Below are positions 4,824 through 39,036 of a stretch of DNA of 39,036 bases, piece after piece. Both the position numbers and the translations under genes were made by a program. The notes beneath the pieces were generated by a model, which saw only the letters and a program-made list of their open reading frames with translations, had not been told where the DNA came from and ran no database searches. The DNA lies in assembly GCA_002701385.1 (NCBI GenBank), contig NZVD01000030.1, forward strand, positions 1 through 39,036. Direction: 5' to 3'. Numbering within the stretch: the first letter of the stretch is position 1; every line of letters starts with the position of its first letter. This DNA is from Rhodopirellula sp. (GTDB taxonomy: Bacteria; Planctomycetota; Planctomycetia; Pirellulales; Pirellulaceae).

Positions 4824-5957
4824 TCATGTATAGCGTCTTCTGATCGCATTTATCTCGCGTTGAATTTGTGACATCGAGGAATATCGCTCAGCCCGATTGA
4901 ATCTCAGACATCGGCGGATGAGCTTTAGCAGTCTCTTAGGCATTTCTGGGATTTTCGTCTCAAACAGTTTGGGAGCTCGGCGTTGCCTTTCAAGTACGAG
5001 CTGTGCCAACAGTTTGGGACGCATGGCCGGGCCCGCCGCATCAAAGGGACGATATCCATAGAACACCTCATAGAGCATCACTCCGAACGAGTAAATGTCG
5101 GAACGTTCATCTAACTCCCTCTCCTCGTGAAGGATGCAGCTGTGAAGTTGTTCTGGAGACATGTACGACAACGTACCGCCGGAAGTTTGTTTGCCAAGAA
5201 GAGTATCACGGGCAAGATTGAAATCCAGCAGAAGTGCGTTTCCGCAAAACCCTATAAGGATATTCGAAGGCTTCAGGTCTAAATGCAGAACGCACTGATC
5301 ATGTGCGTATTCAAGCGCCTGACAGACTTGCCCCAAAACAGAAAGCAAAACTGGAAACTCGGGTTGAGTTTTCCAATGCACTGGAAATTGAGATACCGAT
5401 CTACCATGAATCATGGGTCTTCGGGATACGCGGTTGGAAGCATGAAAGCGATAATCAAGTGCCTTCAATTTATCCGCCAAAGTAAATCGCCCTAAATACG
5501 GCATACAGATCGTGGTGATCCCTAATTCGTCTGTCATACAGGAATGGACGGGCATTATATGTTTGTGATTCAGTCGACCAGACGTCGCTGCTTCTTGGAT
5601 TCCCTGCTCTCCCCAACAGGCCAACTTACCAGTCTTTAAGACGACAAGGCGATTTCCTAATGCCTTATCCATTGCCTTGAAGACTCGGGAAAACGTCCCC
5701 TGCCCAATCTCTTCGAGTAGTTCAAACCGATCGAAATAGCCCGCCAACTCGGGCACTGATGCGATCTGTTGTTTAGCAGCCGCCGGAGCATCCGGAAATA
5801 GGTTTTCAAGCAGCTCGTCGACCTTTTGATCCAGATCCCCTGAAGTTAGAAGTTCTTCGAGTCGACGATGGTCGCCCTGATCCAAATCAGTTGATTGACG
5901 TAATGACCTAACGGATTCCTGATTGAATTTCAGCAAGTCCTTTTGTGCCGTTCCCAT
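4824..5957 (-). CDS. soluble Ser/Thr protein kinase with altered HRD and DFG motifs
   Basis: This 377-residue protein has an N-terminal helical part of about 75 residues and then a kinase domain. The glycine loop is EEIGQGTFSRVF (83-94), the ATP lysine is K108 (VVLK), and the alphaC glutamate is probably E122. The catalytic loop HLDLKPSN has D227, K229 and N232; the Mg motif is LLDFNLA with D245; SPE is at about 267-269 and DERSDIYSFGV follows. Catalytic K, D, N and D are all present. The arginine of HRD is leucine and the glycine of DFG is asparagine. The altered HRD marks a non-RD kinase, so regulation by activation-loop phosphorylation is unlikely. No membrane segment or sensor domain follows. 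It is convergent with the GT-C gene (13-bp gap). Confidence 0.92.
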   Translation of the reverse strand: MGTAQKDLLKFNQESVRSLRQSTDLDQGDHRRLEELLTSGDLDQKVDELLENLFPDAPAAAKQQIASVPELAGYFDRFELLEEIGQGTFSRVFKAMDKALGNRLVVLKTGKLACWGEQGIQEAATSGRLNHKHIMPVHSCMTDELGITTICMPYLGRFTLADKLKALDYRFHASNRVSRRPMIHGRSVSQFPVHWKTQPEFPVLLSVLGQVCQALEYAHDQCVLHLDLKPSNILIGFCGNALLLDFNLARDTLLGKQTSGGTLSYMSPEQLHSCILHEERELDERSDIYSFGVMLYEVFYGYRPFDAAGPAMRPKLLAQLVLERQRRAPKLFETKIPEMPKRLLKLIRRCLRFNRAERYSSMSQIQREINAIRRRYT

Positions 5958-22586: not shown

Positions 22587-24800
22587 TTATGCATCACCCT
22601 GAGCAGCCTTGGCTGTCACGATGGAGCTGGCCTGATTCCCGGCGATCCCGGTACTCTTTGCCATTCCTAACAGACCTTGCAGCTCATTTCGGATCGAGTC
22701 CGTTCGAGCCAGACCGATCATCTTGGCAATCAGAGCGGCGATCGAAAGATCTTTCACATCGTCCGTGCTGAGGTTGAACTGATCAACCATACCAAGGATT
22801 CGAGCCTGGAAGTACTCAGGGTCTCCGTTAAAGAACGTGTCTTTAACATCGCTGACTACTTCACTGTTATTTACAAATCGATCGACAACCTTACCGCCCT
22901 TCACAGCGTTGACCACCTGGTCGAAGAAGGTTGATTCACCGCCGACGATATCGATGCGAGCACTCTTCAGTGCTTCACCCATAATGTTCGACTGAGCTTC
23001 TGCGATTTGACGTTGAGCATCGATCGCAGCAATTTCGATTTCTTTATCTTTATTAAGCTGGAGTTTGTATTCTTCGTGTTCTTTACCCACATCGTCGAAG
23101 AGCTTCATCGCATTCGCTTTCTCTTCGATACCTTGAGCTTCTGAACTATATTTCAGCTTCATGACTTCTGCTTCGGCTGTACCTTCTTTCGAGATACCTT
23201 CTGCCTTGGCGACCATTCCGGTTGCTTCCGCTTCGGCGTGACGTTGAACAACTACTGCTTCTGCAGTTCCTTGTTTCTCGGTCGCGACAGCTTTCGCTTC
23301 CTGGCCTTTAGCTTCCGCTTCGGCTTTACGCTGGATCACAGCAGCTTCTGCATAACCATCTTTTTCTTTCGCATCTGCCTTCGCCGTAATGACGTTTGCT
23401 TCCGCTAACCCACTGGCTGCTTCATCAGCGGTTTTCGCTTCGGCTAACATCTTGGTAGCCTGAGTTTCTTTTTCCGCTCGCTGACGGTGAGCTTCTGCTT
23501 CGATCACGATTTGTTCGGCGTGACGTTCGGCAGCTTGTTTCTCAGCATCGGCTGCTTTGACTTCTTTCACCAAGGATTCTTCTGCTGTCATTTCAGCTTT
23601 GGTGACGGTAACTCGTTTGAGTCGGTCGGCAGTCGCGAATTGTTCGGTATCTTTGATACGTTCCTGTTCTTCGACGACTCCACGTTCAACGATGACTCGT
23701 TCACGAATGACTTCCTGAATATTTCGCTTTTCGACTTCGATCGCTTTGTCTTTATCGATGTCTGCCAAGGCAATCACACGTTCACGATCAGTTGCTTCCA
23801 ACCCTCGGTCACGTTCGACACGTTCGGTTTCAACCGCATCCGTACGTTCTTTGTTCTTACGAGCCACAATGATCTGACGATCTTTGTTCTCTTCAGCCAC
23901 CTGAAGTTCCTCTTCCGTTTGAATTCGGCGACCTTCGGCACGTAAGCGTTCTTCTTCGCGAACGACAGCGGCCTGAGCCTGTTCACGCGCGGTCACTTCT
24001 TCAATTTCACGACGTTGACGCTCTTCAGCTTCTACCTGCTGACGCTCCAGAGCCAGGATTGCTTCCCTAGCTTCCACGTCCTGCTTGGTAATCGCCTTTT
24101 CTTTTTCACGCTCAATATCGTTGGCCTGAATCGCTTCACGAGCAGTCAGATCCGTAATCTTCTTAATACCTTCCGCATCAAGAATGTTCTTAGGATTCAA
24201 CGCTTCAACTGGCGTTTGTTCCAGATAATCAATCGCAGTACTAACTAATTCGTAACCTTGCAAGTCCTCTGCGTCACCCAGAACTTCGGTAATAGCCACT
24301 TTGAATTGATCTCGTTCTGTATACAGATCGACGAAATCAAATTTCTTTCCGATCGTTTTCAAGGCCTCTGAAAACTGAGCGTCAAATAATTCGATCAACG
24401 CATCTCGGCTCGAAGCTCGTTTCGCACCCAGTTTGGCAGCAACCATTTCCATATTGTCAGCAGAGATTCGCAGATAGAAAGCAACTTCAATATCCGCTCG
24501 GATATTATCTTTACAAACTAATCCTTCAGATCCCTGACGTTTGATCTCAATCCGCTTGACGGACAAGTCCATACGCTCTGCCTGATGAGCCAGCGGAATG
24601 ACAAACATCCCGGAGCCTGAAGCAGCTCTGACGCCACCCACACCAGTACGAATCACAGCCTCATCAGGACCGACTTTGACATAGAATTTATTAAGGGCCA
24701 CTGCCACAATCAGCAGTAAGAACAGCCCTCCACCAATGGCGATACCGGTAATAGCTATACCGCTTAGTTCGCCTGCTGCGATTAGGAACTCGCTATACAT
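22587..24800 (-). CDS. flotillin-like SPFH/band 7 protein (YqiK-like)
   Basis: From ATG 24800 this is 737 residues. One membrane segment lies at about 13-35, then an SPFH domain (about 38-200; VKVGPDEAVIRTGVGGVR, GSGMFVIPLAHQAERMDLS). A very long charged coiled coil runs to about 610 and is rich in EREK and AEA-type repeats. A globular tail with KSARIDIVGGESTFFDQVV follows. Flotillins form large membrane scaffolds. The ORF could begin 28 codons earlier (24884), but that part is Arg-rich, overlaps the OB-fold gene, and lies upstream of the GAGGAA that sits seven bases before ATG 24800. ATG and the previous stop share ATGTATAG. Context with an OB-fold membrane protein matches the YqiJ-YqiK pair of proteobacteria. 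Confidence 0.94.
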   Translation of the reverse strand: MYSEFLIAAGELSGIAITGIAIGGGLFLLLIVAVALNKFYVKVGPDEAVIRTGVGGVRAASGSGMFVIPLAHQAERMDLSVKRIEIKRQGSEGLVCKDNIRADIEVAFYLRISADNMEMVAAKLGAKRASSRDALIELFDAQFSEALKTIGKKFDFVDLYTERDQFKVAITEVLGDAEDLQGYELVSTAIDYLEQTPVEALNPKNILDAEGIKKITDLTAREAIQANDIEREKEKAITKQDVEAREAILALERQQVEAEERQRREIEEVTAREQAQAAVVREEERLRAEGRRIQTEEELQVAEENKDRQIIVARKNKERTDAVETERVERDRGLEATDRERVIALADIDKDKAIEVEKRNIQEVIRERVIVERGVVEEQERIKDTEQFATADRLKRVTVTKAEMTAEESLVKEVKAADAEKQAAERHAEQIVIEAEAHRQRAEKETQATKMLAEAKTADEAASGLAEANVITAKADAKEKDGYAEAAVIQRKAEAEAKGQEAKAVATEKQGTAEAVVVQRHAEAEATGMVAKAEGISKEGTAEAEVMKLKYSSEAQGIEEKANAMKLFDDVGKEHEEYKLQLNKDKEIEIAAIDAQRQIAEAQSNIMGEALKSARIDIVGGESTFFDQVVNAVKGGKVVDRFVNNSEVVSDVKDTFFNGDPEYFQARILGMVDQFNLSTDDVKDLSIAALIAKMIGLARTDSIRNELQGLLGMAKSTGIAGNQASSIVTAKAAQGDA

Positions 24801-25476
24801 TTTCAGTTTCCTCGTTGTTGTCCGTTGTTTCCTCGCCCGTCGAACGCGATTCCGCAACAATGTACACCTTCTGAGCATTGTCATAGCTCACGACGGTTAC
24901 CCGAGTTCCATTCGGGATTTCTTCTCCAGCCGTCCTGGCTTCACTTATCAAATCCCCCTCTTTGCGAGCGATAAAAATCTTCCCGCGAGTCGAGTGGGTT
25001 GTAATTCTTGTCGTGGCCTGGCGTCCAACAAAGGAAGCCCGGTCCAATGTGTTTTCCTTAAACCAATTTCGCATTGGTTGGGTGACGGATTTCGTGGCAA
25101 TCGCACCGATTCCAGCTACCCAAAACAGACGAAAGGCGATAACACCTGACGCAACCTCTTCTGAAAGTGGCTTATATTTATCCACCCCTATTGAGGCAAA
25201 AAAGAAACAGATTGAAAAAATTGAAAACCATAACATCAATGGAATGGTTCCAATATTTAGCCATTTAAGCGGCATCAGGCCGATTCCCATGAATCCGTCT
25301 ATACCACCAACATCTGCATCCGTATCAAAGTCCAAATCGAAGTCAATCACATCCAATCCCAGACCGGTCAATACCGAGATGAGCCAGTAGGCAACTACAA
25401 ATAGAACCAACCCTGTTGATACAATCAGGGGAGCACTGAATAAGTAATCTACGGTTTGTGTTAACTGATCATTCAT
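24793..25476 (-). CDS. OB-fold membrane protein, YqiJ/NfeD-like
   Basis: This 227-residue protein has three membrane segments (about 18-38, 70-95, 110-130). An acidic loop between the first two (VIDFDLDFDTDADVGGID) is a known feature of YqiJ-like proteins. A cytosolic beta-rich OB-fold (about 145-208; GRQATTRITT, IPNGTRVTVVSYDNAQKVYIV) follows, and the end is an acidic tail. NfeD-type OB-fold partners bind flotillin/stomatin proteins and help place them in the membrane. It is the first gene of the block and overlaps flotillin by eight bases, which implies matched synthesis. No clear Shine-Dalgarno is seen before its ATG. The assignment is by architecture and neighbour. Confidence 0.88.
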   Translation of the reverse strand: MNDQLTQTVDYLFSAPLIVSTGLVLFVVAYWLISVLTGLGLDVIDFDLDFDTDADVGGIDGFMGIGLMPLKWLNIGTIPLMLWFSIFSICFFFASIGVDKYKPLSEEVASGVIAFRLFWVAGIGAIATKSVTQPMRNWFKENTLDRASFVGRQATTRITTHSTRGKIFIARKEGDLISEARTAGEEIPNGTRVTVVSYDNAQKVYIVAESRSTGEETTDNNEETENV

Positions 25477-26029: not shown

Positions 26030-26713
26030 TTAATCGAGTGAGTCCCACAATTTCTCGAAGTGGCCGATAAACGGCCGAGTAATTGTCGGGTCATCAGTAA
26101 CAAGAAAATTCTCTTCATTATGATGGTCGGCACTACGTGTCCAGTTGTAACTGCCGGTCAATGTTGAAGTCTTGTCAAAGATAGCGTATTTGTGATGCAT
26201 ATGATGAGGTGACTGATCCACTCGAAGTGGGATCCCTAAATTATTCATCCGGTCTACATCAGAACCTGGGTCAAATGCTTTATCGTTATCAGTAATCACT
26301 CGAATGTTTACCCCACGCACATATGCATCCCGAACGGCCTGTGTAATCCGATCATCCGTAATCGTGAAGACGCAAATGTCCACCGTTTGTCTAGCTCTCT
26401 CGAACAGATTACAGATTACCTTTGGACAATCATCTCCAGGGCTGAAGAAGACATGTGAGTCCTTACCATCAGCTGCATCTTGTTTCTGAAACGACTTAAT
26501 GACGTCTTCCAGCCATTCCAAGACTCCTTTGGCTTCCGGACTAATAAGTTCTTCACGGGCAATTTCAAAAGCTCGGTGACGTAAAAACGCAAGTTGATGA
26601 TCCGCCGAGCCGTGTTCCCGTACGATTCCGTTAAGAATTTTTTTCTCACCTCGAGAGACTCTGGCATCATCCAAAGTACGTTTCAAGAGTTCATCAATTT
26701 GTTCTGTTTTCAT
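26030..26713 (-). CDS. phospholipase D-like protein with one HKD motif
   Basis: This 227-residue protein has an N-terminal helical domain (1-75; LDDARVSRGEKKILNGIV resembles small acidic TerB-type helical domains, a weak likeness). A single PLD domain follows, with VICNLFERARQTVDICVFTITDD and the HKD motif H173-x-K175-x4-D180 plus GSYNW (188-191). One HKD per chain implies a homodimer, as in Nuc and mitochondrial MitoPLD/Zucchini enzymes. Substrates in the family are DNA, RNA or phospholipid. No signal peptide or membrane segment is seen. It lies 65 bp after the symporter gene and 553 bp before the flotillin block, and could belong to either transcription unit. Whether it is a nuclease or a lipase cannot be told. 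Confidence 0.88.
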   Translation of the reverse strand: MKTEQIDELLKRTLDDARVSRGEKKILNGIVREHGSADHQLAFLRHRAFEIAREELISPEAKGVLEWLEDVIKSFQKQDAADGKDSHVFFSPGDDCPKVICNLFERARQTVDICVFTITDDRITQAVRDAYVRGVNIRVITDNDKAFDPGSDVDRMNNLGIPLRVDQSPHHMHHKYAIFDKTSTLTGSYNWTRSADHHNEENFLVTDDPTITRPFIGHFEKLWDSLD

Positions 26714-26778
26714 CGTGTTCTGCTCGATTCGTGTCTTTAGTATCCCAGGTGTCGCTTCAATCTCAAAAGTGCTCGAAC

Positions 26779-28329
26779 CTATGACGCAGCAGGTTCGGCA
26801 GTTGATTCCACGGAAGGTGGTGGTGCATCTTCTGAGCCCGTCTCGCTTTGTTGAAACTGTATATCCACTATAGCAGCCCCAATAGAATCCCCAAATGTAT
26901 TGGTTGCCGTTCTAAATCGGTCTAGCAACCAGTCAATCGCCAGTACTGACGAAATCAACTCCACAGGAAGATTGACAGCATTTAAGACAATCATCATGGT
27001 CACCAATCCGGCTTCAGGAATTCCTGCAGCGCCAATTGCTGCCAAGGTCGCTGTCACCGCCACAATCAACTGATCAGTGAATGTCAGTGGTGCCACATCA
27101 AAGCTACCGGAAGCGACGGCAATATTTGCAATAAAGATTGCAGCCGCTGCTTCGTAAAGGGCAGTACCGTCCATGTTGATCGTTGCACCTAAAGGCAAGA
27201 CGAAATTGGTTGATTTTTTGGACACTCCGGCCTTGTTGGCGCATTCCATGGTTAATGGCAAGGTTGCTGAACTGGACGCGGTCGAAAAGGCCGTTAGCAA
27301 CGCCTCAGACATCTGCTTCATATACACATACGGATTCTTCTTCGTGACTAACCAGTAGATAAGCGCAAGAGTAACAAAGGCATGGAATCCTAGTCCTACT
27401 AATACCGTGAGTACGAACATACCGCTCTGAGCGATCACCTGCCCTAGCTCCCCTTTGGCGTTGGCCTCTCCAAAGTTGGCTGCGATAAGGCAAAAAATCC
27501 CGATCGGAGCAATATTCATCAACAACATCACAAAGCTCATCATGGCATCGTTGATTTGGCCCACCATTTCCGTAATGGCTTCCACCTTTTCGCCCATCGT
27601 TGTGAGCATCCCTGCAAAAATAATTGCAAAGACAATCAACGGCAGTAAATTCATTGTGGCCGCTGCTTCAAACAGATTGTCGGCAAACAGCATCAAAATC
27701 AGATTCCCAAGGATCATCCCTATCCCAGGCTCTTCTTCTTCCAAGCCGGCACTCAAGCCTGGGAAGATTTTGGCTAACTCTCCCTCACTAAGACCTGTTT
27801 GAACATGTAAAATCCCCAGCACTTTTTGAACATCTTTTCTGGTAACAACAACTTCACCACCATGCTCTGCAGCTTCTTCGGTCTCAAGTCCTGCGTGTCC
27901 TGTTGCGCTTTCATGATCTTTTTCCGAGGTATCTTGAGCTACGACCTGTTCTGGTGCAGCGGGGCTACCATTAGAAGCTCCGGGATTGAAAATATTGACG
28001 ACGATCAACCCTATGGTCACGGCCAAAACAGTGGTAGCCAGATAGTATCCCACAGCAGTCGCACCAGGTTTTCCAAGTTTCCGCACATCACCAAGGCCTA
28101 AAATCCCGTTCATGACGGAAGCAACCACCAAGGGAACAACCATCATCATCAATGCCCGCAGGAAAACTTCCCCACCGATTCCGATTCCTTCAAAAATACT
28201 GAGCGTCGTCTGTTCTTTCTCAGCACCCATCACAGCCGGCAAGATCAGTGCGGTGAGGATCGCGAGCACGATCGAGATAATGATATAGAGAGTTAGGTTG
28301 CCGTGACCCTTTTTTCCTTCTTTTGACAT
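26779..28329 (-). CDS. dicarboxylate/amino acid:cation symporter (DAACS/SDF family) with long loop insertion
   Basis: This 516-residue transporter has the family core: FLRALMMMVVPLVVASV, the serine-rich hairpin TAFSTASSSATLPL, and the GATINMDGTALYEA substrate/cation motif near the end. Family proteins take up glutamate, aspartate, succinate or similar acids with Na+ or H+. At 115-215 the loop between early membrane helices is about 60 residues longer than usual and is rich in Glu, Asp and His (DTSEKDHESATGHAG, EEAAEHGGE). The C-terminal tail is acidic and disordered-looking. It lies 120 bp downstream of the kinase-TAXI gene in the same direction, so a regulatory link between receptor and transporter is plausible. 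Confidence 0.94.
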   Translation of the reverse strand: MSKEGKKGHGNLTLYIIISIVLAILTALILPAVMGAEKEQTTLSIFEGIGIGGEVFLRALMMMVVPLVVASVMNGILGLGDVRKLGKPGATAVGYYLATTVLAVTIGLIVVNIFNPGASNGSPAAPEQVVAQDTSEKDHESATGHAGLETEEAAEHGGEVVVTRKDVQKVLGILHVQTGLSEGELAKIFPGLSAGLEEEEPGIGMILGNLILMLFADNLFEAAATMNLLPLIVFAIIFAGMLTTMGEKVEAITEMVGQINDAMMSFVMLLMNIAPIGIFCLIAANFGEANAKGELGQVIAQSGMFVLTVLVGLGFHAFVTLALIYWLVTKKNPYVYMKQMSEALLTAFSTASSSATLPLTMECANKAGVSKKSTNFVLPLGATINMDGTALYEAAAAIFIANIAVASGSFDVAPLTFTDQLIVAVTATLAAIGAAGIPEAGLVTMMIVLNAVNLPVELISSVLAIDWLLDRFRTATNTFGDSIGAAIVDIQFQQSETGSEDAPPPSVESTAEPAAS

Positions 28330-28449
28330 GTACCCGATTCACTCCGGAGAATTGTTGCTAATGTAAAACTGACTGGCTAGTTTGAAAGATGCGAAACCAA
28401 AGATGAGCAGGGCGCATTTTTTGCGACTCTGACGACAATAATCTTATAT

Positions 28450-30669
28450 TTATAATTCTGAGTTCGCAAAGAATTCGAGTGCCGCGGGATGAAAATCTAC
28501 CGGATGTTGACTGGCTGCAGTACGAGAAAGCAAATTGAGCCGTCCTGCAATACTGCCGCTCTCACCAGGTACAAAGATAGCAGTCAGCATTCGCTTCACC
28601 AAAGCTTCACCTGCATTCGCATTACTAACAAGGAACGCCATCGTGGCAACCGTTGGAGTCAATTCAGCTTCCACTTGACTCAGGCCTTTCCCTGAAATGC
28701 GATCACGATGATATCCGATCTGCGTAAGGTCATTGATTTGCTGAGGTGTTAATCCAATCAATTCAAAGCGATTGTCATTCAGTAATTCCCGCAATACAGC
28801 ATTCTCTGTACGAGTGGTCACGATCCCTGCTTCGATGGCAGGATCTGTCAGCATGGCCTGGAATGGCTTATAAGATTGCTGAAGTTTCGTGTGATCAATA
28901 TTCAAGGTGGATAAAACTCGCTCCGAAGTAATTCTCATCCCCGAATCTCTCGGACCTAAAGACACAACACGATCTTCCAGGTCCTTCAAAGATTGAATTC
29001 CCTGCCCTTTGCGAATCACAATATGCACTTTATCAGCATATAAGGGCGTTAGTTTCGCGATGTCGTTATCATTGGCTAGTACTTCCAATTGAGCGATGGC
29101 AATGTGGACCTGCCCTGACTTGAGTAACTTCACGTTTTCTATGGAACCTGAAGTATTCAGAATATTCGTGGGTTGGTTGTAGTTGTTCGCTAACTCATCT
29201 TTCAGACTGGTCCCAACCTGATGGTAAAACTGGTCACTCATTCCTGTCCCAATGTTAATCGAGTCAGGAACGTAACTTTGTCGTACATTCTGCCAAAGAA
29301 CGAAAGAACAGAGAATCAGCAGCGGTAAGACCCACAATAGGTGATTTACCACCTTGTGCGTCTGACTCACATTCGGAAAGTGATTCCCCGATAATCGTGC
29401 AATGAACGGAACATTATTCAACCAGCGAATCGACTTCCCAAGTTTACTAATGGGCACAGCATTGACCGGACGACCATCAAGCATGCGTGCAAAATCCCCA
29501 GCAAGCTCTTTGGCTGACGAATATCGACTCAGAGGATTCTTCGCAAGACACTTAAGACAAATCGCCTCCAATTGACGATTCACATTGCTGGACATATCTG
29601 ATGGAGGGACGACCTCCCGGTGGAGCACTTCGACCACCGTGCTAGCTGCTGAGTCTGACTTGAATGGTGGTACGCCGGTGATCAACTCGTAGAGTATCGC
29701 TCCGATCGAGTAAACATCGGAATGGGCTCCCATACGGCCTTCATCAGCTCGGGCCTGTTCCGGCGACATATAACTTGGTGTACCGACCGTATCGCCACTG
29801 CGAGTGAGATCCAATTCATTGTCAATCTGCTTGGCCAGGCCAAAGTCAGTCACAATAGCTTTGCCGTCGGAGTTACGTATAAGAACATTTGCTGGCTTGA
29901 GATCACGATGCAGTATGCCATGCTCATGGGCGGCATGAACTCCATCCGCTACATCCTTCAGGATTTCAGCCATTCGCCGACTGCTCAGATGGCTTTCCCG
30001 ATTCAGAGAAGCCAAATCCGTACCTTCGACATATTGCATTGAGTAATAATGACGGCCACCAACTTCACCAATGTCAAACACGGTGACAATATTGGGATGC
30101 TGCGTGGAACCGGCGGTTTGAGCTTCTTTGTAGAAGCGAGCCACGTCTCGATCGAATCGAAATCGATCTGAGCGAATCATCTTAACGGCGACTTCGCGGT
30201 TTATCCCCGCCTGCCGAGCCCGATAGACGATCCCCATACCGCCCTGCCCTACGACTTCAAGCAATTGATAGTCACCAAAGGCAAAACCCTCCGGCATACT
30301 GGACGTTGTTCCTATCGGAGGAACTGCACCACTGGAGAGATAGAAATCCAGACTGTCGTTATTATCTGGATCTGTATCATCCAGATTTACAGGCCCTTTA
30401 GGCGTGGCGTCTTCGCCCGCCATCGATACGGGAAATTCATCCCCAGATGGCGGACCAGCCATCTTCTGTATCATGTTTGCCATTTCGAGCAGTACATTCA
30501 GGTCGTCGGCAACGTCTTCATTGGCAGCAAGAAACTCATCGCGACTAACAGCCGTTCCTTCATCTTCCTGCTTGAGAAATTCGGCTAGCAACTGACTGAT
30601 GCGCAGTTCGCGATCTGATGGTTCATCAGCAGCATCATAATTATCAATAGGTTTTTCAGACATAGTCAT
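28450..30669 (-). CDS. transmembrane Ser/Thr kinase fused to a TAXI-type solute-receptor domain
   Basis: This 739-residue protein has an N-terminal acidic part (1-130). The kinase domain (133-400) carries GQGGMGIVY (141-149), K163, HRDLKPAN (255-261), TDFGLA and GTPSYMSPEQA, so it should be active. A juxtamembrane part leads to one membrane segment (443-461). The outside part (470-739) resembles TAXI/TRAP solute receptors: INIGTGMSDQFYHQVG, then SGSIENVKLLKSGQVHIAIAQ and VHIVIRKGQGIQSLKDL. TAXI domains normally deliver ligands such as glutamate to TRAP permeases; none is encoded here, so this domain is probably the sensor. It lies downstream of an ECF sigma gene and upstream of an SDF symporter. 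Start choice is M1 or M3 (ATG 30663). Confidence 0.9.
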   Translation of the reverse strand: MTMSEKPIDNYDAADEPSDRELRISQLLAEFLKQEDEGTAVSRDEFLAANEDVADDLNVLLEMANMIQKMAGPPSGDEFPVSMAGEDATPKGPVNLDDTDPDNNDSLDFYLSSGAVPPIGTTSSMPEGFAFGDYQLLEVVGQGGMGIVYRARQAGINREVAVKMIRSDRFRFDRDVARFYKEAQTAGSTQHPNIVTVFDIGEVGGRHYYSMQYVEGTDLASLNRESHLSSRRMAEILKDVADGVHAAHEHGILHRDLKPANVLIRNSDGKAIVTDFGLAKQIDNELDLTRSGDTVGTPSYMSPEQARADEGRMGAHSDVYSIGAILYELITGVPPFKSDSAASTVVEVLHREVVPPSDMSSNVNRQLEAICLKCLAKNPLSRYSSAKELAGDFARMLDGRPVNAVPISKLGKSIRWLNNVPFIARLSGNHFPNVSQTHKVVNHLLWVLPLLILCSFVLWQNVRQSYVPDSINIGTGMSDQFYHQVGTSLKDELANNYNQPTNILNTSGSIENVKLLKSGQVHIAIAQLEVLANDNDIAKLTPLYADKVHIVIRKGQGIQSLKDLEDRVVSLGPRDSGMRITSERVLSTLNIDHTKLQQSYKPFQAMLTDPAIEAGIVTTRTENAVLRELLNDNRFELIGLTPQQINDLTQIGYHRDRISGKGLSQVEAELTPTVATMAFLVSNANAGEALVKRMLTAIFVPGESGSIAGRLNLLSRTAASQHPVDFHPAALEFFANSEL

Positions 30670-30701
30670 TCCGACTAGTTACTCGGTAAAAGTAACATGA
30701 C
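30665..30701 (-). promoter_or_regulatory. inverted repeat covering the start of the kinase-TAXI gene
   Basis: GTTACT (30678-30683) pairs with AGTAAC (30691-30696) across seven bases, and GTCAT (30665-30669) pairs with ATGAC (30697-30701) outside it. In minus-strand mRNA the first start codon of the kinase falls within the outer stem. This may mask translation initiation or be a binding site in the 39-bp gap after the sigma factor gene. Confidence 0.4.
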
Positions 30702-30708
30702 TAAGGAT

Positions 30709-31320
30709 TTAAAATCGACTTTCAGTACCGCCCAGGTCTCGCAAACTGCGAAGTCCTCGTTTAAGAAGACCTGCTACTGCCATTTCAGATCGATCGAGGC
30801 GTTCAGCGATTTCCAGCAAGGTCTTTCCCTCTAAATATCGCAGGCGTAACGCTTCTCGTTGATCTTGCGGCAGTTTGCCCAACAACATTGCAAGCCGGAC
30901 TGCTTGCTCGCCTCGCATCACTCGTTGACTAGGAGACGATTCATTCGATACCGGACCAGCATTTCGAATACGATGAGCTCTTGATGATTGATCAACAATT
31001 GCTTCCTTACGTATCGATCGCTTTTGAGTCTGGATGTGCCGACGAATTACCTGATTGACATTGTTTTCAAGTATTTTTCGTACCCAACCAATCCATTCAG
31101 CCTCGTGAGCCCCCCGAAATCCATCAATATCCCTGTGAATATCTAAACAGGTCTGTTGGATGACATCGGAAGGATCAACACGTGACCTTACTCCTGAATC
31201 TAGGTAGCGGAGAGCAAGAATTCGCAGATAAGGCCTGTAACGATTCAAGAGGTTGCCTAAAGCATCCCGATCCCCGCCTTTGGCACGCTTGAGTAAAGCG
31301 CTGTTCGTATCGTTGTTCAT
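30709..31320 (-). CDS. ECF-type RNA polymerase sigma factor
   Basis: From ATG 31320 this is 203 residues. Region 2 is seen as DPSDVIQQTCLDIHRDIDGF with WIGWVRKILENN, and region 4 as LPQDQREALRLRYLEGKTLLEIAERLDRSEMAVAGLLKRGLRSLR, so it is a short sigma-70 family protein without regions 1 or 3. The start at 31320 is favoured because AGGG (31326-31329 read on the minus strand) lies five bases upstream; a GTG at 31326 is the longer alternative. No anti-sigma gene is adjacent. Instead the kinase-TAXI gene starts 39 bp downstream, matching planctomycete ECF families that occur with Ser/Thr kinases, which are thought to control them. Its regulon is unknown. Confidence 0.93.
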   Translation of the reverse strand: MNNDTNSALLKRAKGGDRDALGNLLNRYRPYLRILALRYLDSGVRSRVDPSDVIQQTCLDIHRDIDGFRGAHEAEWIGWVRKILENNVNQVIRRHIQTQKRSIRKEAIVDQSSRAHRIRNAGPVSNESSPSQRVMRGEQAVRLAMLLGKLPQDQREALRLRYLEGKTLLEIAERLDRSEMAVAGLLKRGLRSLRDLGGTESRF

Positions 31321-31440
31321 TCTCACCCTATATATTCAATTGATGCTGTCGTCTGAGAGAGTGGGCGCTAAATCCCTAAAAATTCAGAATAACGGTTTGG
31401 GGCTTTTGATGCAAAACAAGGCAATCTCCTCTCAAAAGAC

Positions 31441-31476
31441 GAAGTGGCGGGAAAGCAAGGCCTTCCACACCACTTC
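31441..31476 (-). terminator. hairpin after the giant repeat-protein gene, candidate terminator
   Basis: GAAGTGG and CCACTTC form a seven-base-pair stem around an inner GGAA/TTCC pairing, 22 bases past the stop of the giant gene and 120 bp upstream of the sigma factor start. On the minus strand it is followed by GTCTTTTG, a poor T-run. Position favours termination; the tail makes the call moderate. Confidence 0.45.
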
Positions 31477-31498
31477 ATCAGAGACTTATTTTCAAGTT

Positions 31499-34400
31499 TT
31501 AGAATTGTCCGAAGAAGTCATCCAAAGAATTTTCTTCCGCCAACTCTTCGCTTACTTCTTCGACAATATCTGCAATCAGGTCTTCCATAACTTCACTGCG
31601 AACCTGCGATAACCCAGTCGTCTGTTGGTTAGCAAGTTTGAATCCATTGTTGACTGGACCTGCGAGAGCCTGAATGGCCTGTTCGGCGACTGCTGCAATA
31701 TCCATGCCTGATGATGGGACGAATTCACCTTCGCCTTCACCATTGGCGTTATCATTCAGATGATTAATCACCTGAACGGCATCACTCGGAGCAATATAGC
31801 CATCTGCATCCACATCATAGAACGGAGGAGGTGTAGCTCCGGTTACTGGCAGCAGATACGATCCCGATTCGTTCAGTTCGGAAATGATCAACAGTGCATC
31901 CAATGGTGAAATGAATCCGTCGTTGTTGACGTCCATACCATTACTTCGATTGTGCCATGGGTACGGATCTAACATCACGGTGATAGAGACCGTCGCGACA
32001 TTGGAGATAGCTCCGTCGTCATCGGCCACCGTGTAAGTGAGCGAGTCGGGTCCGAGATAAACATCGGGCACAATATTCGGCTGATAGATAATCGAACCAT
32101 CGGCAGCAACTGTAGCGTTACCATTGGAAGGTCCGGATTGAATCGTAACCGTGGCCGGATCCAAAGTGCCATCGGAATCCGAGTCATTATCCAGAACTGA
32201 GATTACCGTTGCAGTGTTAAAGACATCCTGATAAGCATCTGTGGAATCATCTTCAGCGAATGGTGCATCATTGATTTCAACAGTTACAGTGACTTCATTG
32301 GAGAAAGCCCCAAAGGCATCCTTCAACTGATACTTAAAGGTCGTCACTCCGCTGTAATCAACGGCAGGAGTAAACGTGACTTGGTTATCCAAAGGATTAA
32401 CCGATGCGTTACCGGTCGCCACATCTGGATTTTCGGTGATGATCACTTCCACGATGGCATCATCCACATCGTAATCATGCCCCGGATCGGTATCATCACT
32501 CGCCTTAATCACATCGATTACGAGTGGGTTATTCCTTGGCCCAAGAGCACTATCAGGATTCGCGACAGGAGCATCGTTCACACCAGTAACCTCAATGGTC
32601 ACCGTGCCTTGGCTGGTACCACCCTGACCATCACTTACTGTGTAGGTGAAGGTGTCAGTTGCATTCGCACCATCCGCTAATGCCTGAAGTGTATCGGCAT
32701 TTCTAGGATCGTAGAAGAATGAACCATCTGCGTTCATCGTGATTGAAGCACCACTAGTGCTTTGACCAGTCAGCTGGCCGGTACCATTGATACCTGAAAC
32801 GAATAGAGCTGAAGCGGGATCATCTGCATCCGTATCGTTTGCCAGTACACCTGCGGCGTCAACCAGCGTAGAATCTTCGTCTACACCATTGATACCCAGG
32901 AAGTCATCATCCACCGCGACAGGTGCTTTATTTTCACCTGTAACAACGACAGTCACCGTCGCGGTTGATATAGCACCATGAGAATCCTCTACCGTATAGG
33001 TAAAGGTATCATTCAAGGTGTCTCCACGTAGCAAAGCCGCCAAGGTTGCCGATGTCGTTGGGTCATAGCTAAATGAACCGTCGGCCTGAATAGCAACTGT
33101 GGCACCTTCCGAACTGCTGCCGGTCAATGTCGTGCTACCATTTAGCTCAGTCACCGTAATGGAGTCATCCGCATCTGCGTCTGAGTCATTACCCAATACG
33201 CCGGCGGGATCCACATCCAGAACCTGAGTTTGTCCGGTCGCATATTCATCATCCGCTGCCGTTGGGACATCATTCACACCATTGACCGTAAACGTGATTG
33301 TGGTCTGTGATGTCTGTCCGTGAGGGTCACTCATGGTATAGGTGAACTGATCGTCAGCGTTATCACCGGGATCCAGCGCCATTAATTCGGCTGATGTCGT
33401 CGGGTCATAGGTAAACGATCCATCGGCATGCAGTGTAAATTCAGCCCCTCTGGCTGAATTTACGGTTAGACTATTTGTCACACCATCCAAATCAGTACCA
33501 TTTAGTTTGGTAACTACCTTGGTGTCATTAGTATCTAGTTCGATATCATTTGCCAGAACGCCTGCGGCGGCCTGATTTGTGACAACGTCCTGATCGACAG
33601 TCAAGGCATCGGCAACCGCCGTCGGATCGTCATTCACTCCGGTAACCGTAATCGTTACCGTGGATACGTTACTATCTTCACCGTGTTGGTCAGTGGCTTT
33701 ATAGGTAAACGTTACATCGATGGTTTGATCCTGAGCTAACTCCTGGAAGTCTGAACCAGGTACGAAAGTAAAGGTTCCATCGCCATTATTCGCGACCGTC
33801 CCTTCACCAGACGCCAGGTTCTGCACGATGGAATAAGTAAGGCTATCCACATCGTCATCGTTATCAACATCTGATGCGATAAAGCTTGCTGTTACAGCCG
33901 TGCCGTCTTCCACTGCCGCGACCGGCAGATCCTGAGAAACAGGCGCGTCATTGACTCCTGTCAATGTAATACTAACGGTGGCAGCTGTCTGAGACTTGAA
34001 GCCAAAGCTATTCGGAGTCGTCGTATCTTCGATCAGTGTATAGGTAAACGTATCGGTGACAACTTCGCCAACATGCAGAGCCTGAATGTCTACTGCTGTG
34101 GTTGGGTCATATGTAAAGACACCACTGTTAGTATTCGGAGTAACCGGATTGGACCAATCCTGATTTACATCCACAATAGCTCCCATGGCACTAACAACAT
34201 CAAATTCGTCAACACGAATATCGTTGTTATTGGCGTCGGTATCGTTCGCAAGAAGGCTTGGTCCCGGTGCTGTAACCGGCAGAGCGGCGTCTTCTGTAGT
34301 TGCGTATCCTGCTGTAGGCAGAGATGGGTCGTGAATTGCTTCCGGTGGACGTCCATCAACGATTTCGATTTGATAATCTTCGATTTCGCCACTGGTCGTT

Positions 34401-37400
34401 AGACCGGTTGGTCGCAATCCCCCGACATCACTGATACGGAATCGAGCGTACGTCTGGCCAGGTACGGAATCTGGTTCCAGTGGTGCTTTAATGCTCAATT
34501 CATTCGCTCCAGCCGTCAATTGCATACTCGCAGCAATTTGCTCATTAGCATCATCCCAGTCGCCATCTCGGTTGTAGTCAATCCATGCATCGAGCAGAGC
34601 ATCTTCTGAAGCAGTAACAACTAATTCTGTGAAGACATAAGGATTGAAGAATCCAATCGCCGCTCCATTTGGCCCCGTAACACCATCGGCATCGTCACCT
34701 GTAATTTCCACTCGACCGTTAGCTCGAGCGATCGGGTTTAGATTCAGGCGAATATTGGCATCAATGAGTGCCTGTGTAATATTTGCGGCGACGGTATCAG
34801 CACCATCAGTCGCTGTGAAGCTAACTTGAATATTGCCATTGACGAATGAATCGTCACTATCCAGTTCAACAGTGTAGGTATCACCATCACCTGTGATTGT
34901 GAACGTTTCACCATCGGCAACGTGGGCTCGTTGATCCGCAGCATCAACGCCGACCGCATTATCAGCGTTAACGGTTGTGCCTTCCGTGGAAGTAATTAGC
35001 ACATCCGATCCATTGGCAATTGCTGTGACACCCAAGATACCCTGGCCTGTAATAGCAGTGGCAGTCTTGGCGGCAATATCAGCGGTCGTATCGCTACCTA
35101 GCACGTCAATGACAACGTTGCCGTTGGTTGGTGGAATACCCGATGTATCGTATTCAAATGTAATACCACCAACTTCAACCAGATCAGCATCCGTAAATCC
35201 AGCTCCGTCAATGGTGACTGATAGGATGTCGATGTTAGACACAACTAAATTGGTTGAAGTCTGGAGATCATCGGAGGTGATTCCTGCAGCGGCGGCCGTA
35301 TCGATTTGATAGCCTTCACCGTCCAGATCATCACTTACGATCGGTTGGCCGTCATTATCACGGTCAACACGTTCCCCTAGAGAAATAGTGGAACCGGACA
35401 TGTGAATCGCTGGGTTGTGCCCACTGATAGTTGGATAAGCATTCTGTGGTGCTATTCCATTGCCATCCGGTGCGTCTCCCATATCGTAGTCAACTAATCC
35501 CAACTGGATGGTGTACATCGTCTCGCCGGACAGTTGATTTGCCTTGAGTGGATTCGTTGCCAGGTCCTCGATTTCTTCAATTTTCCGAGGAGTCTGGACG
35601 TCCCAGTCATCGACGAGGAAAGCGTTGCTGAAGGTCGAAACGTTCAGTGCTCCGGTAACCCTTAATTCATCAGCACCTTGCGGTTGGGCAATCACGCCAT
35701 CAAGCTGATCCTGACTATTGATCGCCTTGATAATCTGTACCGCCGTTTGCGTTCCATCAAAGTTATCAAGTGGCAAAATATTCACTGGAATCGCAGCCGA
35801 CTTGGAGGGATCGCCTACTTTAATCAGGGCAGTATTCGATGTGTCAATTGTATGTTGCGGTCGAGCACCGAAGGAGATGATTGATGTGCCGGTGACGAGT
35901 TTCGGGTCTAAATTGAGTCCCGATCCCTTCAGGGCAACGATAATCTCCTGAGCCAATTGGTTCACAGTCGTTGAGTTATTAAAGTCAAGACGCGTGTTAC
36001 CCAGTGTAACGGATGGATCAACATCCAGATTATTTAACTCGAACGTAACAGGTGCTCCGGCACCATATTGAACGACGAATGTCTGACCGTCATCCAAACC
36101 AGCAATCTGTCCGGCGGCCGTTGGGATTCGCAAACCAAACTCTGGACGAACACCAGGAGATCCCTGTTGCAACAGATTGCTGTTAGCAGCGTTGAGCAGG
36201 TGATTCATCGTGCCACCGACATGGATAATACCACCGGAAAGCGTAGCCGTTTCCAAATCTAGATCTTCCGCGTTGATTGCATCCGAAATAATCTGTGCCA
36301 GCTCGATATGAGTCTTCGCCGTCGTAAAATTGATCACTACATCACCGACGAGTGGATCTGCGACCAACGGTCCATCTCCGACTTCGGTATTTTCAAATTC
36401 AAACGTAATCACTTTAGATCCATCATCGATCGTAAAGTAGTCGCCGTCGGCAATACCCCCGGCCAAGCCTGTTTGTGTGAGGCTGGTCAAACTAGTATCA
36501 AGGACATGGTTTACATTCGACCCAACATGAATGCGGCCTTCGCCCAGATTTACCGAGTTGGCTCCCAATCCAGCATTCGTAATAGCTGCGACAATCGCAT
36601 CAGCGATTTCATCCATCGTACTGTTGACGGTATACAGAATTGGTGTGCGGCCAACTGTCACATCGCCATCGCGATCAAATTCGAATACAACTGGAGCGTT
36701 TGTACCGACACGAAGTGAGAAGACTTCGCCATCGACGATTCCGCCTAATCCACCGGCTTCTTCAGGAATCTGTAATTCCAAAGTTTGTGGAACCGCTAAC
36801 GAATAACCTCTTTCGAATTCAAAATCAGCTTCATTCCCTTCGAGATCAAAAATCTTGAAGGTATCGCCATCATTGATATTACTCCCGGCTTCGGATACCA
36901 ATTTCCAATGATCCGTGTTGGCCAGTTCTATGGTGTAAATCCGGTCCGGTGTCCAAATCCCCGATAATGGTGTCAGACGGATCGTATCACTTGTTTCGTT
37001 GTAGCTAAACGAATAGTCAATACCGTCATAGAGGATTTCGCCGTTGCGTCGCAGGACAACAGTTTCTGTCGTCACTGTGTTATCTGCGACTCCAACCCCT
37101 TCATTAGGATCAGCTGGTTCTAGACCGTCATTCAAACGGATTTCAAAGCTGGAAACTACGGCATTGGAAGAAAGGTTTACGACGGTATGGCCTGAGTTTT
37201 CATCAACACCATCCGCATCATTGTCTTTAGGATTGATCAAGGCTGCCGTTGGACCTGAGAAATCTGCCCGGTCCAAGGCACCACGGTCGATGAAGACATT
37301 CGTACCAAGACCATTTGGAGGCTCGACTGAAGGATCATCGACACGCAACTGCCCTGTGACATCACGAATCGGAGCAATGATAGGTGAAGGAGCTATTCCA

Positions 37401-39036
37401 ATCGGCTCTTTCACTAAGTTAAATTCGAACCGTTCTCCAAGTGAACTGACCGAACTATCAATCGCCCGATTAGGATTTACCTGTGAACCTGGCTCCAGAT
37501 AGAAGTTATTAACTCCAAGACGAGGATCAACGAATAGTGGATCCGTATCGGCTAATGAGATAGCAAAATCTTCACCGCTATAGTTCGTATTGGACAGGTT
37601 GCCTTTATAAAGTGTTCCACCGATTACCGTTGTATTTGACGACGGGTCTACATTAATCCCTTGAGCCGTATTGGCAATGATATTATTCAACAAGGTTGGG
37701 CTGGCATTTTGGTCGACCTGAATCCCGACATCATTCCCACCAATGTCGGTCATAATCGTACCGCCGATACCCACGATCGTATTATTGATTATTCTCCCGA
37801 ACGGAACCGGTGCAGTCGGCAGTCCTGCTCCATTGTTATCGCCACTAAATCGGATCCCACCTAAACCACTATAAGTAATCAAGTTATTGGTAACGGTTAC
37901 ACCAGGTACTAACCCTTCATCATTTAGTTCATCTAGCTGACGTACTGAACCCTGATGTGGGGCGAAGCCATCAAGCGCGACTCGGTCTCCACCTTCGATA
38001 TGAATACCGTAGGTTTGGGAATTTGCTATTCGGTTTCCAAGCAACAGGATTTGACCTTGTTGACGGGGCAGGTTGGAGTCACCGCGTGTTGTACTCGCTG
38101 TATTGAGTGTTCCGTCAGCAAATTCCACAAACTGAAAGACTTCCGCTCCGGCATCTATGGATAATGCACCGGTGGAAATTTCAATACTGTAGAACCCGGT
38201 TTCAGCGGAGACAGCCGTATCGACACCATCATCTGTATCGATCAATGTCACAGCGGCTCCGAGTGGTTTTGATTCACTCTCTGGAAATCCAGATACACCG
38301 ATATAGAAAGTACCACCGGTTGGCGCGGTAAAGGTTGTAGTTTCGACACCTCCACCAGTTGTGATATCAACGCGAGCTCCGCCAATTTCATTGCCAGTTG
38401 CGTCATAGAAACTAACAACCGGATCAAGGAAGCTGCCTGTTGCTGCAGACACCTGGATGTCGATGGTATCACCGGTGTTGAGTTGCACTCGGAAAAGATC
38501 AGCATCTTTACCAGGAGTATCATTCAGATCCTGATTGTCTCCAATACTACCTGTAGCCTTGAAAGTATTAGACTGTGTGCCATTGATACCGGTTTCGACG
38601 GCCTGTACAAGTATATCGTTTGGTTCGGCGGCGGGTTGGAAGACCGGATTAAAGGTCCGCAGACTCACGTCACCGAGAATGTAAGCATCGCCGTGCAGGT
38701 CTACAATATTGGACGACAGAATTGTGTTGTTATCAAACGGGTCTGAATCGAAGCGAAGATCATCACGATCATCACCATCGCCGTCGTCCGGAAAGCGTGT
38801 CCCGTCCGTACCATCACTCAGGGCAGCCGTCACATCAAGTACGGCTCGTACTTCTGAGCGGTTAATCACATCTCGAATCGAGATGGCAACTTCCCAACTC
38901 AGCATTTCTGAATTGAAGGGTACTTCGAAGTTCCCTGGAGTTACTCCGTCACTGTTAATTTCATCATTGAATTCAAAGTTAATACTTTGCATTCCATCGG
39001 TCAGAGTGAAGATATCACCATCTGCGATATCCGCTC
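31499..39036 (-). CDS. giant secreted cadherin-like repeat protein with dockerin end (N-terminus outside window)
   Basis: At least 2,511 residues are visible and the frame is open to the right edge, so the true start lies beyond it. Numbering from Met at 38992, the order is an edge FEF-type repeat copy and a PPC-like domain (about 150-245; DADLFRVQLNTGDTIDIQVS). A right-handed beta-helix follows (about 305-455; LLLGNRIANSQTYGIHIEGG), then FEF-type repeats (about 710-1430) and a GEVED-like domain (about 1455-1545; DAWIDYNRDGDWDDANEQI). Seven cadherin/VCBS-type repeats come next (about 1550-2340), and two dockerin calcium loops (DVNNDGFISPLDAL, DVDADGYIAPSDAV) lie near 2350-2420. The end is acidic and helical. 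Such proteins are usually extracellular adhesins or surface scaffolds. Confidence 0.9.
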   Translation of the reverse strand, partial: ADIADGDIFTLTDGMQSINFEFNDEINSDGVTPGNFEVPFNSEMLSWEVAISIRDVINRSEVRAVLDVTAALSDGTDGTRFPDDGDGDDRDDLRFDSDPFDNNTILSSNIVDLHGDAYILGDVSLRTFNPVFQPAAEPNDILVQAVETGINGTQSNTFKATGSIGDNQDLNDTPGKDADLFRVQLNTGDTIDIQVSAATGSFLDPVVSFYDATGNEIGGARVDITTGGGVETTTFTAPTGGTFYIGVSGFPESESKPLGAAVTLIDTDDGVDTAVSAETGFYSIEISTGALSIDAGAEVFQFVEFADGTLNTASTTRGDSNLPRQQGQILLLGNRIANSQTYGIHIEGGDRVALDGFAPHQGSVRQLDELNDEGLVPGVTVTNNLITYSGLGGIRFSGDNNGAGLPTAPVPFGRIINNTIVGIGGTIMTDIGGNDVGIQVDQNASPTLLNNIIANTAQGINVDPSSNTTVIGGTLYKGNLSNTNYSGEDFAISLADTDPLFVDPRLGVNNFYLEPGSQVNPNRAIDSSVSSLGERFEFNLVKEPIGIAPSPIIAPIRDVTGQLRVDDPSVEPPNGLGTNVFIDRGALDRADFSGPTAALINPKDNDADGVDENSGHTVVNLSSNAVVSSFEIRLNDGLEPADPNEGVGVADNTVTTETVVLRRNGEILYDGIDYSFSYNETSDTIRLTPLSGIWTPDRIYTIELANTDHWKLVSEAGSNINDGDTFKIFDLEGNEADFEFERGYSLAVPQTLELQIPEEAGGLGGIVDGEVFSLRVGTNAPVVFEFDRDGDVTVGRTPILYTVNSTMDEIADAIVAAITNAGLGANSVNLGEGRIHVGSNVNHVLDTSLTSLTQTGLAGGIADGDYFTIDDGSKVITFEFENTEVGDGPLVADPLVGDVVINFTTAKTHIELAQIISDAINAEDLDLETATLSGGIIHVGGTMNHLLNAANSNLLQQGSPGVRPEFGLRIPTAAGQIAGLDDGQTFVVQYGAGAPVTFELNNLDVDPSVTLGNTRLDFNNSTTVNQLAQEIIVALKGSGLNLDPKLVTGTSIISFGARPQHTIDTSNTALIKVGDPSKSAAIPVNILPLDNFDGTQTAVQIIKAINSQDQLDGVIAQPQGADELRVTGALNVSTFSNAFLVDDWDVQTPRKIEEIEDLATNPLKANQLSGETMYTIQLGLVDYDMGDAPDGNGIAPQNAYPTISGHNPAIHMSGSTISLGERVDRDNDGQPIVSDDLDGEGYQIDTAAAAGITSDDLQTSTNLVVSNIDILSVTIDGAGFTDADLVEVGGITFEYDTSGIPPTNGNVVIDVLGSDTTADIAAKTATAITGQGILGVTAIANGSDVLITSTEGTTVNADNAVGVDAADQRAHVADGETFTITGDGDTYTVELDSDDSFVNGNIQVSFTATDGADTVAANITQALIDANIRLNLNPIARANGRVEITGDDADGVTGPNGAAIGFFNPYVFTELVVTASEDALLDAWIDYNRDGDWDDANEQIAASMQLTAGANELSIKAPLEPDSVPGQTYARFRISDVGGLRPTGLTTSGEIEDYQIEIVDGRPPEAIHDPSLPTAGYATTEDAALPVTAPGPSLLANDTDANNNDIRVDEFDVVSAMGAIVDVNQDWSNPVTPNTNSGVFTYDPTTAVDIQALHVGEVVTDTFTYTLIEDTTTPNSFGFKSQTAATVSITLTGVNDAPVSQDLPVAAVEDGTAVTASFIASDVDNDDDVDSLTYSIVQNLASGEGTVANNGDGTFTFVPGSDFQELAQDQTIDVTFTYKATDQHGEDSNVSTVTITVTGVNDDPTAVADALTVDQDVVTNQAAAGVLANDIELDTNDTKVVTKLNGTDLDGVTNSLTVNSARGAEFTLHADGSFTYDPTTSAELMALDPGDNADDQFTYTMSDPHGQTSQTTITFTVNGVNDVPTAADDEYATGQTQVLDVDPAGVLGNDSDADADDSITVTELNGSTTLTGSSSEGATVAIQADGSFSYDPTTSATLAALLRGDTLNDTFTYTVEDSHGAISTATVTVVVTGENKAPVAVDDDFLGINGVDEDSTLVDAAGVLANDTDADDPASALFVSGINGTGQLTGQSTSGASITMNADGSFFYDPRNADTLQALADGANATDTFTYTVSDGQGGTSQGTVTIEVTGVNDAPVANPDSALGPRNNPLVIDVIKASDDTDPGHDYDVDDAIVEVIITENPDVATGNASVNPLDNQVTFTPAVDYSGVTTFKYQLKDAFGAFSNEVTVTVEINDAPFAEDDSTDAYQDVFNTATVISVLDNDSDSDGTLDPATVTIQSGPSNGNATVAADGSIIYQPNIVPDVYLGPDSLTYTVADDDGAISNVATVSITVMLDPYPWHNRSNGMDVNNDGFISPLDALLIISELNESGSYLLPVTGATPPPFYDVDADGYIAPSDAVQVINHLNDNANGEGEGEFVPSSGMDIAAVAEQAIQALAGPVNNGFKLANQQTTGLSQVRSEVMEDLIADIVEEVSEELAEENSLDDFFGQF
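31970..34350 (-). repeat. seven cadherin/VCBS-type tandem repeats within the giant protein
   Basis: Each unit of about 90-115 residues opens NDAPVA-x-DD and holds VLANDTDAD, ADGSFTYDPTTSA, DTFTYTVSD-x-GG and ends VTGVNDAP. Copies 3, 4 and 5 are the most alike; copies 1, 2, 6 and 7 have drifted. This suggests recent duplications in the middle of the array. Confidence 0.85.
34700..36900 (-). repeat. FEF-type repeat array of about 110 residues per unit
   Basis: Units share ADGDYFTIDDG, then VITFEFEN, a variable stretch, a helix with IADAIVAAITNAGL and a beta end such as GRIHVGSNVNHVLDTS. Three or four good copies are seen between about 35760 and 36900, weaker copies at 34700-35250 and one at the right edge (about 38940-39036). 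I do not recognise a named family for this unit. Confidence 0.6.

Follow-up and report, generated by a model that had tools for sequence, protein, structure and literature searches.

A single reading frame in a Rhodopirellula genome joins a Ser/Thr kinase, one membrane helix, and a TAXI domain, the type of protein that serves TRAP transporters as substrate-binding subunit. Computation establishes the architecture and fold of this fusion, its conserved pocket and catalytic residues, the absence of a TRAP permease, and its linkage to an ECF sigma factor gene. We think it probable, though well short of certain, that the fusion is a one-protein receptor kinase that senses an extracytoplasmic glutamate-like ligand and signals through its ECF partner. 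The gene lies in a 39,036-nucleotide stretch of DNA, analysed in full and here called the window.

A kinase and a TAXI domain in one chain

The fusion gene and its parts are as follows.

28450..30669, minus strand: kinase-TAXI fusion gene, 739 aa, ATG start (open reading frame; Pfam and NCBIfam profiles; 57 fusions in 149 family genomes)
30445..30627, minus strand: N-terminal helical domain, residues 15-75, before the kinase (AF2 helices 19-36, 43-49, and 51-71)
29509..30270, minus strand: Ser/Thr kinase domain, residues 134-387 (Pkinase, PF00069, E 2.2e-51)
29275..29364, minus strand: membrane helix, residues 436-465 (hydrophobicity and AF2 helix; inferred topology)
28468..29250, minus strand: TAXI domain, residues 474-734 (PF16868, E 2.4e-26; TIGR02122, 98.3 bits; modelled fold)

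A sequence-only reading of this DNA had described a complete kinase domain, a single membrane segment at about 443-461, and a TAXI-like C-terminal part. All three hold up. By its catalytic Lys, HRD, and DFG residues (Lys163; His254-Arg255-Asp256; Asp275 and Gly277) the kinase is of the Hanks Ser/Thr type, with predicted activity. The same residues are kept in 57/57 fusions of the bacterial family, and Phe276 in 56, with one residue unread. The hydrophobic peak (19-residue windows beginning at 439-444) lies close to the modelled helix. The TAXI part exceeds the thresholds of both relevant profiles: 93.5 bits against a cut-off of 27 for NMT1_3 (PF16868), and above the cut-off of 84.35 for TRAP_TAXI (TIGR02122). 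Five other fusions were scored with TIGR02122; three lie above the cut-off, and two below it (L165, 78.3; L076, 82.3). The full-length AF2 model (pLDDT 81.9) has a pTM of 0.46, so that it does not fix the relative placement of the domains, and no signal path is visible in it.

The closest NCBIfam match of the kinase is to the PknB/PASTA type (NF033483, 298.4 bits), which shares the plan of kinase inside, helix, and sensor outside. However, this score is below the NF033483 cut-off of 450, the match spans the kinase part only, and the sensor of the fusion is TAXI. The window also contains a second, small protein kinase gene (4824-5957, 377 aa, PF00069 9.6e-35).

Distribution

A search with the TAXI part against 149 genomes of the same bacterial family found matches in 89 genomes, at 121 places. 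Frames of at least 600 aa account for 58 of these places, and 57 are kinase-TAXI fusions, each in a different genome; the 58th (L173, in G004) is without a kinase. The sequence-only reading had proposed looking for the same fusion in other genomes, and there it is, in 57/149. It is thus scarcely conceivable that two unrelated genes were joined by faulty assembly or annotation: the window does come from a draft assembly (100 contigs), and the related named records were assembled from metagenomes, but some of the 57 genomes are single contigs (G011, G036, G055, and G130), and orthologues on this scale refute a chimera.

Phylogeny sets the fusions apart. In a tree of 95 TAXI domains, 56 fusions and a fragment at a contig end (L174) form one clade (99/96), and 17 TRAP-paired TAXIs form a separate clade (100/99). 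Fusion L171, whose matched TAXI stretch is shorter than 200 residues, was omitted from this tree and from the pocket alignment below. A sample of the wider phylum yielded TAXI matches in 76/392 genomes; no kinase shares the TAXI frame at any of the 20 loci outside the family that were examined from these 76 genomes. Scanning named genomes with one protein found four close loci, in metagenome-assembled planctomycetes labelled Planctomycetaceae or Pirellulaceae.

Two copies of the gene are irregular. At L050:10042-12025 (G105), an IS66-type transposase ORF stands between a separate N-terminal-domain ORF and the remaining kinase-TAXI gene, an interrupted copy. On a named metagenome contig (L153:1630-4008), the TAXI part is 100% identical to that of the window whereas the kinase part scores far lower (8e-94 versus 3e-183), perhaps because of masked or misassembled DNA.

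The TAXI fold

The fold of the C-terminal part points the same way as the profiles. A PDB sequence search retrieved, as its top match, the Thermus 'GluR0 ligand binding core' (1.2e-9). The AF2 model of the TAXI part, built with 33 sequences from the family, has a pLDDT of 93.1. Foldseek ranks 1-7 for this model are all TAXI proteins, with TM-scores of 0.78-0.84 (by query length), and VIA-align gives Z-scores of 26.9-28.5 to six TAXI entries, with the next row at 15.0. The comparison of residues 470-739 with TAXI structures, suggested by the sequence-only reading, thus returns a two-lobed TAXI fold.

The fusion shares this fold, together with the Tyr/Gln/acidic core of the glutamate site, with VcGluP (8s4j, 9ibo) and TtGluBP (1us4, 8u79). 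These two are free periplasmic TRAP subunits, whereas the TAXI domain of the fusion is the outer half of a kinase without a TRAP partner.

The binding pocket

Tyr45 and Gln93 of VcGluP are reported as its main glutamate determinants, with mutations costing 213- and 990-fold, respectively, and Tyr200 as of little weight (PMC11574862). The equivalent residues of Bordetella pertussis BP0403, Tyr219 and Gln263, are reported with losses of 167- and 250-fold (PMC12344293). Three positions of the pocket core can be placed in the window.

29224..29226, minus strand: Tyr482, equivalent to VcGluP Tyr45 (alignment; Tyr in 55/56 fusions)
29089..29091, minus strand: Gln527, equivalent to VcGluP Gln93 (alignment; Gln in 56/56 fusions)
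29032..29034, minus strand: Asp546, equivalent to VcGluP Glu125 (alignment; Glu in 51/56 and Asp in 5/56 fusions)

The position of VcGluP Ser75 is Ser or Thr in 54/56 fusions, and that of Gly156 is Gly in 55/56. Moreover, Tyr482, Gly508, Asn512, Gln527, and Gly577 do not vary across 29 aligned sequences that are 31-81% identical to the window protein. The family's TRAP-paired TAXIs, by contrast, have Phe, Asn, and Asn at positions 45, 93, and 125 in 17/17 cases, so the glutamate-type core is better kept in the fusions than in these transport TAXIs. (The two solved glutamate binders nevertheless fall nearer to the TRAP-paired TAXIs than to the fusions, in the midpoint-rooted tree.) With these glutamate-pocket residues conserved, the domain is likely to be a working sensor.

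The ligand could be something other than glutamate, since positions 40, 46, 123, 157, 200, and 201 are mostly unlike VcGluP, and the window protein has Arg at 203. The outside domain might instead sense another ligand or a partner protein, for example a kinase-free membrane TAXI of the same genomes, one of which is encoded in the window genome (L079); bacterial receptor kinases do bind varied ligands. We judge this unlikely, though worth keeping in mind, in view of the near invariance of the two strongest glutamate determinants and of the acidic residue at position 125.

The loop after Gln93 is shorter in the fusions: 10-11 residues in 56 of them, against 21 in the 17 TRAP-paired TAXIs and 24-25 in the two solved TAXIs. 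A shortened loop is what one might see in a remnant that no longer binds and serves only to anchor or dimerise the kinase. In the 29-sequence alignment, however, few parts of the domain are as well conserved as its pocket residues, and we regard a remnant as very unlikely. That the shortened loop represents a lost TRAP docking loop is only an idea, as the modelling section of PMC11574862 names no TRAP contact residues.

Absence of a TRAP permease

The absence of a TRAP membrane subunit, noted for the window by the sequence-only reading, extends to the genome and to the family. Neither TIGR02123 nor PF06808 finds such a subunit in the window genome (100 contigs, 99% complete), although the two profiles are positive in 6/14 and 7/14 control genomes, respectively. 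TRAP_fused proteins above cut-off are present in 48/149 family genomes. A TRAP_fused permease lies within 2 kb of 13/13 TAXI places in frames of 300-419 aa, of 4/46 in frames of 420-599 aa, and of 0/58 in frames of at least 600 aa. The 13 TAXI genes of ordinary length, all with their permease, are an internal positive control for the argument from absence. The fusion is thus not a TRAP subunit: its genome and operon encode no TRAP membrane subunit, and its TAXI domain follows the kinase and membrane helix within one reading frame rather than forming a separate exported binding protein.

Kinase-free and other TAXI proteins

The family also encodes TAXI proteins without a kinase. One is in the window's own genome (L079:8567-10036, contig C36), 17 similar ones of 433-510 aa are in the family, and L147 and L148 lie outside it. 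In these proteins the domain is flanked at either end by a hydrophobic segment, and the C-terminal tail is charged and runs to about 100 residues or longer. They keep the pocket Tyr and Gln, and none has a TRAP partner within 2 kb among the loci examined. They look like membrane receptors with cytoplasmic output.

Further combinations are found. L131:5346-7256 encodes, in one chain, a TAXI domain (41-325) and the membrane region of a pentameric ligand-gated ion channel (PF02932, 528-607, 43.7 bits versus a cut-off of 28.1), possibly a TAXI-gated channel. L136 combines TAXI with a trypsin-like peptidase domain. Frames with two TAXI matches each occur in other planctomycete families (L133, L134, L135, L137, and L139).

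The upstream ECF sigma gene

The sequence-only reading was silent on both immediate neighbours of the fusion: an EAAT-like symporter gene downstream, and the following gene upstream.

30709..31326, minus strand: ECF sigma factor gene, 39 bp upstream of the fusion (TIGR02984, 193.7 bits versus a cut-off of 183.75)

This gene belongs to planctomycete subfamily 1 (TIGR02984). An ECF gene lies within 400 bp and on the same strand at 40/57 fusions, versus 0/24 other TAXI proteins. The remaining 17/57 fusions have no adjoining ECF gene of this type, and for one of the 17 the contig holds less than 600 bp of upstream sequence.

A membrane Ser/Thr kinase beside an ECF sigma gene has precedents in PknT-EcfP and PknS-EcfK (PMC8999054, PMC13147305), and a review predicts that several planctomycete ECF groups are kinase-run (PMC8999054). 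ECF43 factors are described as lacking the acidic residues of region 2.2, whereas 39/39 readable fusion-linked rows keep D/E-x-x-D there (one of the 40 rows is a fragment), and the sensor of the fusion is TAXI. Activation of the ECF43 type, with loss of the acidic DxxD, is thus unsupported; the one well-described kinase route to ECF activation does not fit. Phosphorylation elsewhere in the factor is possible by analogy with EcfK, for which phosphorylation at Thr106 has been reported (PMC13147305).

We are undecided on whether the N-terminal helical domain might be a general ECF-docking module of kinases. Its profile matches 56 fusions; beyond these it has only one weak match (E 0.0094), to the nearest ECF-linked kinase of the window genome.

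Directly upstream of the ECF gene, at 31499-38992, the window encodes a secreted-type protein of 2497 aa with cadherin-like and bacterial Ig domains and a dockerin match. Relatives of this protein are upstream in L039, L041, and L155.

The downstream symporter gene

Genes downstream of the fusion include the following.

26779..28329, minus strand: SDF-family (EAAT-like) symporter gene, 120 bp downstream of the fusion, genus-limited (PF00375, 4.2e-104)
26030..26713, minus strand: PLD-like domain gene (PF13091, 2.7e-28), near 6/57 fusions
24793..25476, minus strand: YqiJ/NfeD-like membrane protein gene (weak PF21001 and PF01957 matches, both below cut-off), relatives near 8/57 fusions

Among solved structures, the symporter matches EAAT1 constructs best (1.4e-83); EAAT3 and EAAT2 come next, with ASCT2 and GltPh behind them. 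Its NMDGT motif and LDRFRT..N stretch align with EAAT1, and the TM8 Asp and Arg are present. For GltPh, Asp394 and Arg397 are reported to bind the amino group and the side-chain carboxylate (PMC4900748); ASCT2, a neutral transporter, is reported to have Cys at the position of that Arg (PMC4596572). The NCBIfam scores for GltP (171.5) and DctA (165.7) are close together and both far below their cut-offs, so the profiles leave the substrate unsettled and glutamate is a guess from the residues. A long insert of roughly 85-130 residues separates two SDF matches in the symporter at 26779-28329 of the window, in L165:8658-10343, and in L093:6869-8533; perhaps it is an extracytoplasmic domain.

The symporter adjoins 3/57 fusions, as well as one that runs off the end of its contig. 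Within the window's genus it follows the fusion in the window, in L039 (which matches the named record L154), in the named L155, and in L080/L156 (the contig-end case); it follows the fusion in one other genus (L165). It also adjoins kinase-free TAXI genes in G024: L093, and L085, which has only a C-terminal fragment of the symporter. Altogether, TAXI and symporter genes adjoin at six of the 81 loci, spread over three genera; rough assumptions predict about 0.2, and loci within a genus are not independent. SDF genes are present in at least 144 of the 149 family genomes, nearly always away from the fusion locus, and in most genera the examined flanks of the fusions contain no SDF transporter. 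As a family-wide rule, then, linkage to the symporter is rejected. Because the symporter is missing from the locus in most genera, glutamate uptake serves as a clue to the ligand and not as a general part of the system.

A scan of 26500-31800 for promoters and terminators gave counts at the level of shuffled sequence. No terminator-like site was found on the coding strand in the gap between fusion and symporter, which says little.

The neighbouring symporter raises the question of whether the TAXI domain may serve transport besides, or instead of, sensing. As a tethered transport subunit, it would hand its ligand to the adjacent SDF/EAAT-like symporter, a mode of action that has been proposed for TAXI-GltS, while the kinase regulates the transporter or reports flux. 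The excess of adjacent loci over expectation favours this reading, as does a published precedent: TAXI-GltS, in which BP0403 of B. pertussis, a TAXI without TRAP that has the same two key pocket residues as the fusion, is described beside a secondary symporter gene (PMC12344293). However, that symporter is GltS, and the main text of the TAXI-GltS report names no kinase (PMC12344293). The neighbour of the fusion is SDF/EAAT (PF00375) and is linked in few genera, and the fusion falls outside the TAXI-GltS class. Given also that so few fusions have the symporter beside them, we find a transport subunit quite improbable.

A related idea applies only where the symporter gene follows the fusion. There, TAXI kinase and symporter might form one glutamate transceptor complex. 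The TAXI domain would capture glutamate and pass it on to the elevator symporter, and by closing the domain would drive the kinase as well. This is a long shot; if true, it would make SDF/EAAT a further secondary transporter family with a binding protein, here a binding protein that is coupled to a kinase within one chain.

A model for signalling by the fusion

The sequence-only reading had cast the binding protein as a receptor that switches a kinase. Neither of the two findings that it named as refuting was made: the C-terminal part models as a two-lobed TAXI fold, and no TRAP_fused permease lies within 2 kb of any of the 58 long frames. This supports the receptor half of the reading; we infer the ligand-driven switching of the kinase, the identity of the ligand, the ECF factor as target, and, in two genera, the symporter's place in the response. 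According to the receptor-kinase model, the TAXI domain, outside the cytoplasmic membrane, would close on a ligand that is a small carboxylated amino acid, with L-glutamate or a near analogue as the likeliest candidate. The closing movement would pass via the one membrane helix and alter how active the Ser/Thr kinase in the cytoplasm is. The kinase would in turn signal to a target, probably the ECF sigma factor whose gene lies immediately upstream, or another. Where the symporter gene adjoins the fusion, in two genera, its product would take part in the response.

Each element of this model is known separately: glutamate-binding TAXI proteins; TAXI next to a symporter that is not TRAP; a membrane kinase beside an ECF gene; and a glutamate binder that acts on a kinase via a third protein. 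The last is exemplified by GlnH-GlnX-PknG, in which an acidic-amino-acid-binding protein is reported to act on a Ser/Thr kinase, as proposed here; that system consists of three separate proteins, whereas the fusion is one chain (PMC9769921). The union of kinase and TAXI in one chain was not found in a limited, open-access literature search, and the terms 'TRAP', 'NMT1', and 'solute' are absent from the main text of a planctomycete kinase survey (PMC11032199).

For most bacterial receptor kinases, no ligand is known. The sensor of the fusion, however, has relatives with solved glutamate-bound structures and point-mutation data, which makes the ligand and two pocket mutants directly testable. 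The fusion gene usually has an ECF sigma gene next to it. Across a planctomycete family, a binding domain of transporters stands away from its transporter and is now the outer half of a kinase.
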